Shown piece by piece: positions 26,472 through 30,970 of a DNA stretch of 64,000 bases. The notes beneath the pieces were generated by a model that saw nothing but the letters and a program-made list of their open reading frames with translations, was not told the DNA's origin and did no database searches. Position 1 is the first letter of the stretch. Every line of letters begins with the position of its first letter. The DNA is taken from the NCBI GenBank assembly GCA_009192285.1, contig WBVU01000003.1, positions 496,001-560,000 on the forward strand, read 5' to 3'. The translations under genes were made by a program, and so were the position numbers. The DNA comes from Morchella semilibera. Its lineage: Eukaryota > Ascomycota > Pezizomycetes > Pezizales > Morchellaceae.

Positions 26472-29400
26472 CTAGATATGCCTATTTATGTTCTGTGGCT
26501 CTGGAAGCTTGCGGGAGTTGAGAAACTCCAACTGTTCTGGAGTTTTCATGTTATCAAAGAAAGGTGTAATGAATGGGCTATCGACCATTTGGACTGGAAT
26601 ATCTACAGGGTGAAAGATATCCGCAGTAAGGAATTTTGGAAACCCTTGGGGCTTCCCGTGAACTTCATTTGAATTGGTAATTGCTGTAGTAGTATCGGGG
26701 GACTTAGGATTGGGTTTGTTGGTAATTGGCATGGCCACTTGCTGGACACTGTCGAGAGGCTCTGGATCCATTTGGTCGGCACTTGAATCATTGCTTTCAT
26801 CTTTGATATGGTCCTGACGAATATCGCTAGGTGGTTCCGGGTTCAATGAGATAGAATCTGGACCGTCATTTACAGCACCAGCAGCAATATCCATATCTTT
26901 GATATTCTGCTCACGCACACCTGCATGAGTCGGGTAGATGAAACGGGCAGTAGCCGCTACCCTAAACTTTCCTAGAGGAATAACAGAGTGCTGTTGCAGG
27001 TCACAACGAGTCAGAATAGTCCAAGGACTAAGGAGAAATCAAATAATTAAACATACCTCCCAGTATTTTTGAATGTCTGATCCGCTCATTACCATGACGT
27101 CCCCATGGTTTAGACACAAGTCGAGCTTGACTCTAGAATTATCCTTTGGGATGCGGACTGGTGATTTCTGTTGAAGGTCTGGTAGATCTTCATTTTCCTC
27201 CTCCTCCGGCTCTTCCTCATCGGTATTTGAATTATCATGTTGTAACAAGGCGGGAGGTTTGGTTGTCCAAAGATGGGTATCCTTGATATATCTTTTTTTC
27301 AATCGAAACTTCATACGAGCTGGAGCGCCCAAGGAGATAGAGGCTACAGTCTCCCCAAGGCCAGCCTCCCCATCATCATGAAACTAGATTTCCTTGCAAT
27401 ATGAGCGAGTGTTACCGCGGAAATGTGAGTGCTAAGGTGAAACTCACGTCCATTTTTTGGCCTTCGAAATAGCCGACACTAAGAATTTCATTGAATTCTG
27501 CATCGTGATGAACAAGTCTCGAAATCTCAGTGACGAGGTTTAGGGCCTGAGTTACGACTGGCGGTGACTGGTCAAATGGACTGCTGTCCACCTTTGCAAT
27601 GAATTTATATGGAGCGCCCTAAGAAATAATTAACAACAGATAAATATAAACAGAATTCAATAACATGATCAAAATCTTACACAATTGAATGAAAATTGTT
27701 GGGTTAATAATCTTCCCCTGGCTAAATGAGTGTTAATATGAAACCTTATCTGCCATAGATGGGTTAGTTCAACTTACATTTATGGTTTTGCATGGGGAAA
27801 CGCTTAAATGGCATATCAATGGATTGATAATTGTCCAATAGCCAATCAGCGCCCCTGGGACGTGAATTTGTTTGTTTGTTCGAAAGGATATGGGTAACTG
27901 TACCACAATCTCCGAATTCATACTGCATCACTGTCATACCATCTACGACAAACCTTTTGTACACAACATCTGGATGAGACTTGTTTGTAGGTACCGCAGG
28001 TCCTGTAAAAATTGGACGATGCGGGTTTGCCAAACTAGCAGCAGAAAAGATTGTGCGGGGCGGGTTATTGGTGTAGTCACATGATAAGCATCTCCAACCT
28101 GCCCATAGTTCTCTACAGTTCAGGCGGCCGCATTTGGGACAACACATACCCTTCCAGTAGATCCGTGAGACATCTTCTCCGTTGTAGTAAATGTCACGCG
28201 TTTCATCGAGGATAGGTGCTAGGTCGCTAGGTGGTTTCGAGTTTTCTAGAGGCCATGGTGTTCTGCAGCTGATGAAGTTTTGAGTATATTTAAGCTCTAC
28301 AGGCGCATCCTCACCATTAATCTATTTAGGTAAAAGATTAATGTCCGTCCATCCTAGGATGAAGCAAGCAGAGCATATTTACCTTCCAGAATTGTGGGCA
28401 ATTCTGATCCAGACACATCCACCCCTCTTCGTAGATATATGGGCTCTCGGTTTTACAAGCGCGGCAAGTTCCTGAAACCATTTCCTCAGGGTGTTCACTT
28501 TCGGTAGATGGTTCTGAAGCCCACCAGCCGTCCGTTGTCGTGTCGAGCTTTTCGAATCTAAATTTCCACCTAGCGAACCCAGTCGCTTGATCTTTTTCTG
28601 CCCATCCGCAAGTGACCTTGAACCAGTCCATAACGCAGTATGTATGTGGGATTTTCGATGGAGAATTTCCACAGTTCTTGCCTGCATTTGAAAATTGACA
28701 AAATGAGTATTAGGTAGAAACCGCAGGTAAAAATATATTACTAACCAATTATCAGGACCATGGGTGACTTGTCTCTAATGTTCCTAAGGAGATATTGAAT
28801 TGTTTTGTCATCTCTGGTTTGGCTTGAGAGAAGCCTGCGATTCCCGTCCTCGTCGGTGCCGGATTTACCACCGCTGTAAAGTCTATTATTAAAATACAGT
28901 ACTATATATAACTCAAAGGAGGAATATACGAACGTGTGAGCGATGGCAACTTTCCCATCAATGTAGTCCCTCGGAGAAGGGAAACCGTCAAGTAGAGATC
29001 CTAGAACAAGACCGTCATGCCCATAAACGCCACCTTGGTAACTACGATAGTAAGTCAAACTCTCACAAAGTTCTTGACGAGACTATAAGATATCATGCAT
29101 TGATTAGTACTACATTCAAGATCGAGTACGGGTATAGATACATAAAGAAAGACAAATCTTACCTCGCACCAAATGGCTGGTCTCCTGATACCAGGAGGTT
29201 TATCTGCTTGGGGATCGCGTGAGATAACTGATATCTCCTGGCTAATATTCTCGGTCTGGGGCTTATTCGTTACTTCCTTTTTAACTCTGCATCTTTTGGT
29301 TTTAGGCCCTGTAGGTCGTTTTTTGTGTGAAGGTGGTGAGTCAGACGCTGGTGGGCGTTCGTCGTCACTCTGACTGGTTTTGACGACTTTGCCCCTTGCT

Positions 29401-30970
29401 AGAATAAGCCCTTCATCTCGGGTACATTGAGAACCCTCGTTGATACACCTATCGCAAGGAGTCTTTCTGTTGCAGGACTGATGTTTCTTTGCGCAACTAT
29501 GAAGATAATGTTTAGAAAAAGTGGCCACAAGATTCTTAAGGGAAAAGGGCCCTACCCGTGGCAAGCTTTCGGTGCCATATATACCCCATTGACAAGCGTA
29601 AGGACATCAGTCTCGCCTTTCTCGGAGTTATCATTAGCAGAAATGGATGATGAGCCTGTTTGGCCCCCACTTTTTTGAGCACTTTTGGCACCAGAGTTCA
29701 ACTTTTGTCTTTTTGGAGTTAGTTTTCCCGCCTTTTCGCCTTCGACGTGGAGTTTATTAGTAATATCTACTCTTTTATCAGCTTTTTCGTTCTAGTCAGA
29801 AAGCTCATTAAGATCACTCTTACCTGCGAGCGGCCGGGTTTGAGAGGGACCTGTAGTAATGTTGGGTTTGGCTCCATTTTCAATGAATCTTTTCTTTGGA
29901 ACAGTAGAACTGGAGGTTGAATTTCGAGATTTATGGGTTCTGCTCGGTTCTTTACGGGGCCGTAGCCTCTCCGGGGTTATTGTAGTGTCAGCTAAGATCC
30001 CAGTTTTCCTAGTAATCTTTGGAAAGATTGGTGTAGGATCTCGTGGTTTATCGGCTCCTTCAGATAAAGCCCTAGACTGGCGAATCAAACTTTTATCAGA
30101 ACCTGAGGGAAGGTCGGCCCGAAATGAAAACTGTTGGGTACTATAACCGGGAGGCAAGGATGCGTGACGTTTGACCGGCTCTTCAGGGGGGCTTTCATCC
30201 TCATATTCAACCCAACTCCAAGTGGGTTTTTTCTTCTTGCGCACACCCTTTTTTCGTGGAGAACGGGTCTCGAGTGATAATGCGTGATCCGACTGATCAA
30301 CCTGAGCCGAGTCGAGCTTCGGCTTTTTGCCAGTAAAAATTGTGTTTGAAGATAAAAGCGTTGTTGCAGCTGGGTTTAAGTTTTTAGTTGGAGAAGCATC
30401 AACCCGTGGGTTCTGATCGCTCCCAAAGCTAAGTCTGCTTCTTTTCCTGGGAATTTCCATATAATCTCCGTTAGAGTGGTTGCTTAGCGCTCCGTTTCCA
30501 CAGCTGACTTTGCTTGACGACCGAAGCTGCCTTGGTCCGGCGGTACCAAGGTCGCTGTCTTCGTTAGCAGCAATGGCTCTGGCAACTCGAAATGCTTCAA
30601 CTGTATCTGGATCAGCACAGACATCGATTCCGCGGACACGAGACTTATGACGGGTGTTTTGAGGCGGATTAATATTAAGGACTGAGTCTTCTTCTCCTTC
30701 TCCTTCTTCTTGGGTATCGTTTTCCGTATCGTCAAGAACATTGGACCTATTATCAGCATCTTCAGCCTCGACTTCCGAAGACGGTAATTGAGGCTCTGCG
30801 TCAAAGTACAAGTCCAAGTCTGATATTGTAGACAGTGAACTCATTGAAGAAATTGAATATGTCGGCGAGGGAGGAATTTCAGCCTCTAAAAAACCTGCCA
30901 GGTTGGCAGAAGAATTATTCAGGCGTGGCCCCAACTGGGGAGCAGCAGAAAGTGTAATACTATCTTGCAT
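26472..30970 (-). CDS. Zn2Cys6-AlkB-type Fe(II)/2-oxoglutarate dioxygenase fusion
   Basis: Eleven exons read cleanly: 30970-29824, 29781-29556, 29496-29163, 29082-28934, 28873-28746, 28681-28383, 28321-27778, 27721-27681, 27618-27448, 27383-27057 and 26990-26472. All splice phases close, giving 1,294 residues. Residues 1-450 are disordered and acidic/Ser-rich. A binuclear zinc cluster C-x2-C-x6-C-x5-C-x2-C-x6-C spans 456-482. A conserved fungal domain (YRSYQGGVY, AHTGGKSG) covers about 570-665. Two zinc ribbons use Cys734/737/751/756 and Cys822/825/830/839/842. The C-terminal double-stranded beta-helix core has FHDDGE (His1015, Asp1017), HGDVMVMSG, the distal His1123, and Arg1132/Arg1138 in the AlkB R-x5-R spacing, so Fe(II) and 2OG ligands are intact. 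Known: AlkB-family enzymes oxidatively demethylate nucleic acids. Inferred: a nuclear enzyme targeted to DNA. Substrate unknown. Confidence 0.88.

Follow-up and report, generated by a model that had tools for sequence, protein, structure and literature searches.

SRA domains, which in other organisms hold methylated DNA, and AlkB enzymes, which elsewhere take damage off DNA bases, are both well studied and, in the cases known to us, are parts of separate proteins. SET and RING parts are familiar partners of SRA domains. In TagI the SRA domain is joined to an HNH part. The excerpts cited from PMC11393059 do no more than name the SRA family. Among fungi, a 2026 review of DNA methylation presented, in the sections cited, Dmt1 (AlkB type) and CcTet as the earliest demethylases to be characterised in this kingdom and counted few characterised erasers (PMC13297926). 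A study from 2023 on AlkB proteins in fungi, likewise cited from excerpts, chose its proteins by the PF13532 domain, built a tree of 125 proteins and gave Fusarium ALKBH2 as 933 residues (PMC10826363); the family described below may lie within that tree, and Fusarium ALKBH2 is a possible member of it. Here we analysed the window, a stretch of 64,000 nucleotides from Morchella semilibera (contig WBVU01000003.1, positions 496,001 to 560,000), in which one minus-strand gene encodes an SRA-fold domain, as judged from structure models, and an AlkB core in a single chain. Within literature searched by title and start of abstract, where a prior mention is possible, no description of an SRA-AlkB fusion and no experimental study of the family was found. 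A sequence-only reading of this gene had placed a Zn2Cys6 cluster in its title; that stresses the weaker half, and the real find is that a conserved family of AlkB proteins in fungi carries an SRA domain which mostly goes unannotated. We propose, at what we judge to be an even chance, that the fusion protein repairs N-alkyl lesions on DNA near a modified base bound by its SRA domain.

An SRA fold and an AlkB core in one protein

The architecture, the fold of both main domains, the conservation of the ligands and the presence of the fusion in both phyla were computed in this analysis. The gene and its two main domains are placed as follows.

26472..30970, minus strand: AlkB-SRA fusion gene, 11 exons, ten introns, 1,289 residues (splice model)
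28452..29201, minus strand: SRA-fold domain, residues 552-733 (profile range), four exons (profile and structure model)
26928..27976, minus strand: AlkB-type 2-oxoglutarate (2OG)/Fe(II) dioxygenase core, residues 872-1138 (profile range), five exons (Pfam, profile and fold)
27372..27380, minus strand: iron-binding H1010-x-D1012 (sequence; 118 of 118 aligned homologs)
26943..26990, minus strand: distal iron ligand H1118 and R1127-x5-R1133 (sequence; 113, 114 and 114 of 118 aligned homologs)

The domain carrying YRSYQGGVY had been said to loosely recall SRA/YDG readers, and structure prediction against SRA domains had been suggested as a check. Run on the domain of the Morchella homolog, that prediction gave an SRA fold, with Z mostly 14-17 against solved SRA domains, so that on the modelled structure the resemblance is one of fold and is firmer than first worded. 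A search of PDB sequences with the domain agreed, as its four matches under E 1 all belonged to SRA proteins, with three reaching E 8.4e-4 or better, and the domain also matched SRA pieces of the same genome at E 1.7e-6. Pfam SAD_SRA (PF02182) gave no match in the window protein, its cut-off of 30.7 bits not being reached; when 57 members were scanned, 10 matched at E 1 or better, and the highest, P0142, scored 24.9 bits against the same cut-off. P0142 carries PF02182 in the database's own labels despite this sub-cut-off score. Because it is the only protein with an SRA label among the matches listed, which otherwise bear the name "hypothetical protein" or dioxygenase names, annotation largely misses the reader half. 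Four further SRA domains occur in the genome (L013-L016); the best of them, L013, has the usual GGY...DD pocket, with Phe at the place of the others' second Tyr.

The AlkB core was evident from Pfam, with 2OG-FeII_Oxy_2 (PF13532) at 56.9 bits in the window protein against a cut-off of 31.2, and the H-x-D, distal His and R-x5-R described earlier were all found, at the positions given above. Whole-protein fold searches were filled by this core, the SRA part needing its separate domain model, and placed it closest, on predicted structures, to human ALKBH3 and ALKBH2 at about 20% identity. Tet_JBP was not among the Pfam matches of the window protein, and a scan of three homologs with NCBIfam returned one sub-threshold AlkB match and no other. 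ALKBH3 and FTO, both of which have RNA activity, were among the nearest folds, as would suit an RNA demethylase (of N6-methyladenosine, m6A, or 1-methyladenosine, for example) whose zinc modules and SRA fold bind RNA. A Cryphonectria AlkB protein, CpALKBH, is also reported, in the excerpt cited, to remove m6A from RNA (PMC11708048). Nevertheless, the solved structures retrieved with the sequence of the reader domain belong to DNA-binding SRA proteins, and we regard an RNA substrate as improbable. A separate AlkB gene lies elsewhere in the same genome (L017:1977-3275, minus strand); besides AlkB, this frame has matches to glutathione S-transferase families and a below-cut-off match to an isochorismatase-linked thioredoxin-like family.

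Distribution of the fusion

Three protein searches at E 0.001 returned 44, 261 and 329 overlapping matches, of which the best 120 of 261 and the best 120 of 329 were taken; the matches listed comprised 276 distinct homologs. With our own profiles on 277 sequences (these and the window protein), SRA was found in 277, AlkB in 276, and SRA, Cys modules and AlkB together in 275, and the order was SRA then AlkB in all 276 sequences having both. Because some of these sequences went into the profiles, and the queries that retrieved the homologs contained both parts, these counts describe the stability of the pairing and not the frequency of the parts alone. Within Dikarya, the scope analysed here, the fusion was present in Ascomycota and Basidiomycota, in cup fungi, moulds and mushrooms. 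A gene tree made by a quick method separated basidiomycetes, Orbiliomycetes, Pezizomycetes and other ascomycetes, and this separation fits descent of the family from a dikaryan ancestor. The family appears to be an old fungal one, built of an SRA fold, two Cys4 modules and an ALKBH2/3-like core, to which Pezizomycetes and a few other ascomycetes add a divergent Zn2Cys6.

Gene model

28079..28141, minus strand: second Cys4 module, C817-x2-C820-x13-C834-x2-C837 (sequence and conservation; alignment gap in P0002)
28398..28466, minus strand: first Cys4 module, C729-x2-C732-x13-C746-x4-C751 (sequence and conservation)
29564..30970, minus strand: N-terminal part, residues 1-450 (splice model and Pfam scan)
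29823-29767, 29555-29497, 29162-29083, 28933-28874 and 28745-28682, minus strand: introns 1-5 (splice model)
28382-28322, 27777-27722, 27680-27619, 27447-27384 and 27056-26991, minus strand: introns 6-10 (splice model)

The minus-strand splice model formed a single open frame from 30970 to 26472, with introns of 56-80 bp and GT..AG ends. The sequence-only reading had likewise found one spliced frame with ten introns, of 1,294 residues. An alignment of the window protein to a single predicted Morchella sextelata protein, P0002, ran from the first exon through to the last, with 60% identity over the full length and 70% over residues 445-1145. Because the model aligns in this way with one protein, a split into two genes, which the sequence-only reading would have accepted as a refutation if transcripts showed it, is unsupported. 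That two adjoining genes were joined by error is extremely improbable: the joined gene does rest on predicted splicing, but the end-to-end match to P0002, itself a prediction, and the presence of Zn2Cys6, SRA and AlkB in one protein in 14 of 276 homologs both weigh against it.

The two Cys4 modules sit between SRA and AlkB, and all eight cysteines were at least 90% conserved in the 118 aligned homologs. Near residue 879, the P0002 prediction appears to miss the stretch of the second module; in the window gene this stretch forms part of the open frame. No family was found in residues 1-450 by the Pfam scan of the window protein. This part has several patches rich in lysine and arginine (K/R), read by eye, which are possible nuclear signals, and the structure model of the Rhizina homolog had low confidence over its N-terminal 125 residues.

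The Zn2Cys6 cluster

29424..29563, minus strand: Zn2Cys6 motif, residues 451-477, split by intron 29555-29497 (pattern and Pfam PF00172)

The cluster, called canonical by the sequence-only reading (residues 456-482 in its numbering), kept that standing in its spacing, C-x2-C-x6-C-x5-C-x2-C-x6-C, and in a marginal Pfam match: Zn_clus (PF00172) scored 21.3 bits on the whole window protein against a cut-off of 21, and 19.9 bits, under the cut-off, on the exon alone. In the model of homolog P0007, blocks of 92-95 in the predicted local distance difference test (pLDDT) run across the motif. The cluster is, however, not canonical in its C2-C3 loop, which averaged 1.13 K/R over 15 family motifs, compared with 4.07 over a set of 27 distinct clusters from the same genome. 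That set is biased to canonical clusters, as it comes from the best-scoring 30 of 49 Zn_clus matches, 28 of which were read (L036 and L043 left out). The residue before C3 was basic in none of the 15 family motifs and in all 27 other clusters; it was F or Y in 14 of the 15 and S in the window protein. A fungal transcription-factor middle domain was not among the Pfam matches of the window protein, which comprised two families at E 5 or better.

The strict motif was also the least conserved module of the protein, found by pattern scan in 14 of 276 homologs, a count that may be too low as gene prediction may have shortened some N-termini. Its carriers were Sarcosagium, Peltula and 12 rows of a 13-row group in the gene tree; every named member of that group (all but one) is a Pezizomycete, and Pyronema P0026 was the one row lacking the motif. 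A looser scan of the N-terminal parts added only a degenerate copy in Phylliscum P0163. The pattern scan gave no Zn2Cys6 in the other listed members, which we take from their species names to include Orbiliomycetes, Eurotiomycetes, Dothideomycetes and basidiomycetes, among others. The cluster was thus rejected as the core of the finding, given its presence in few homologs and its loop low in basic residues, and an accessory or protein-contact role is likelier for it than that of a CGG-type DNA reader. One position weighs the other way, against a complete loss of DNA contact: at the fourth place in the loop, 9 of the 15 family motifs have K/R, compared with 25 of the 27 other clusters. Even so, the sequence-specific DNA binding first ascribed to the cluster was not supported.

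Possible functions

The SRA residues most strongly kept in the aligned homologs were GG (118 of 118), the Q, G and Y of QGG-x-Y (111, 109 and 111) and D-Q (99 and 103), and this conservation suggests a specific job for the domain. In SUVH5, Tyr416, Tyr428 and Asp418 hold the flipped base, according to the excerpt cited (PMC4740795). Two alignments and column counts gave no counterparts of Tyr416 and Tyr428 in the family, the first place being mostly S, E, P, K or D and the second a gap or S/T; the Asp418 counterpart was kept in 80 of 118. With both stacking aromatics missing by alignment, a role of the domain as a 5-methylcytosine (5mC) reader is not supported. Of the reader, DNA-binding module and eraser first envisaged in one chain, the SRA fold and the AlkB core are supported; 5mC reading and sequence-specific DNA binding by Zn2Cys6 are not.

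This pocket bears on two further explanations. If the SRA fold were a general DNA clamp lacking mark specificity, the protein would be a plain alkylation-repair enzyme; loss of the 5mC-holding aromatics and the ALKBH2/3-like core accord with this, but the strongly kept SRA residues suggest a specific job and one or more further clear AlkB genes are present in the genome, and we consider this explanation unlikely. Similarly low is the probability we assign to a regulated demethylase of Dikarya in which SRA recognises a modified base (methylated or oxidised cytosine, N4-methylcytosine or N6-methyladenine, 6mA) and AlkB oxidises that same mark. In its favor are the joining of SRA and dioxygenase within a single chain, seen in 276 of 277 sequences, a pocket whose departure from the 5mC type might suit a different base, and the AlkB-family and TET-family 6mA erasers known in fungi from the cited sections of PMC13297926.

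Repair near an SRA-bound base, the proposal we began with, would proceed as follows. The fusion protein would act in the nucleus, where its SRA domain, whose pocket departs from the 5mC type, would bind DNA and flip or sense a modified base. This binding would place the AlkB core on nearby DNA, and the core would remove an N-alkyl lesion, 3-methylcytosine (3mC) or 1-methyladenine by analogy with ALKBH2/3, by oxidation with 2-oxoglutarate. In its most specific version, the protein would clean up 3mC left in methylated DNA by cytosine methyltransferases. DNA methyltransferases have been reported to make 3mC off-target and to co-evolve with ALKB2, a relation weaker in fungi according to the excerpt cited (PMC9246332). 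The 56.8 Mb genome assembly had cytosine-methyltransferase matches at about three distinct loci, with contigs C12 and C13 counted as one. Contigs C9 and C10 (2,071,371 and 2,071,177) and C12 and C13 (1,576,628 and 1,575,470) are near-equal in size, with the same matches at near-equal offsets, and are probably two nuclear haplotypes retained in the assembly.

More tentatively, and with somewhat less than an even chance, the family may be a reader-eraser chain throughout Dikarya, its SRA pocket remodelled to take some mark or lesion that is not 5mC and its SRA domain delivering the AlkB core to methylated or methyltransferase-damaged DNA. If so, the cost of cytosine methylation (3mC) would be repaired, or a hidden DNA mark erased, where it arises. 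With the conserved fusion one can test directly whether the repair of side damage by methyltransferases is directed to methylated DNA, and the family is a candidate eraser in fungi.

Comparison with known systems

The SRA domains of UHRF1/UHRF2, SUVH4/5/6 and TagI resemble the window domain in modelled fold (Z mostly 14-17), and those of SUVH4/5/6 also by sequence at the profile level. They differ in having the stacking aromatics of the 5mC pocket, missing in the fusion family by alignment, and in their partners, which are SET, RING or HNH parts in known SRA proteins and a dioxygenase here. Fungal Zn2Cys6 transcription factors share the cysteine spacing, the marginal Pfam match and a basic residue at one place in the loop (9 of 15 motifs), whereas their K/R-rich C2-C3 loop and middle domain set them apart from the window protein.

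Human ALKBH3 and ALKBH2 share the core fold, the HxD..H iron ligands and RxxxxxR, and the Glu after HxD is common to ALKBH3 and the fusion family; two Asn positions of ALKBH3 are replaced, and the fusion core is only about 20% identical to these enzymes and is placed behind SRA and Cys4 modules. Dmt1 (AlkB type, Mucor), CcTet (TET type, Coprinopsis) and CpALKBH (Cryphonectria) are, like the fusion core, 2OG/Fe(II) dioxygenases, shown or proposed in the excerpts cited to act on methylated bases. Those excerpts mention no SRA domain for them, and the fusion protein, unlike the TET type, has no Tet_JBP match.
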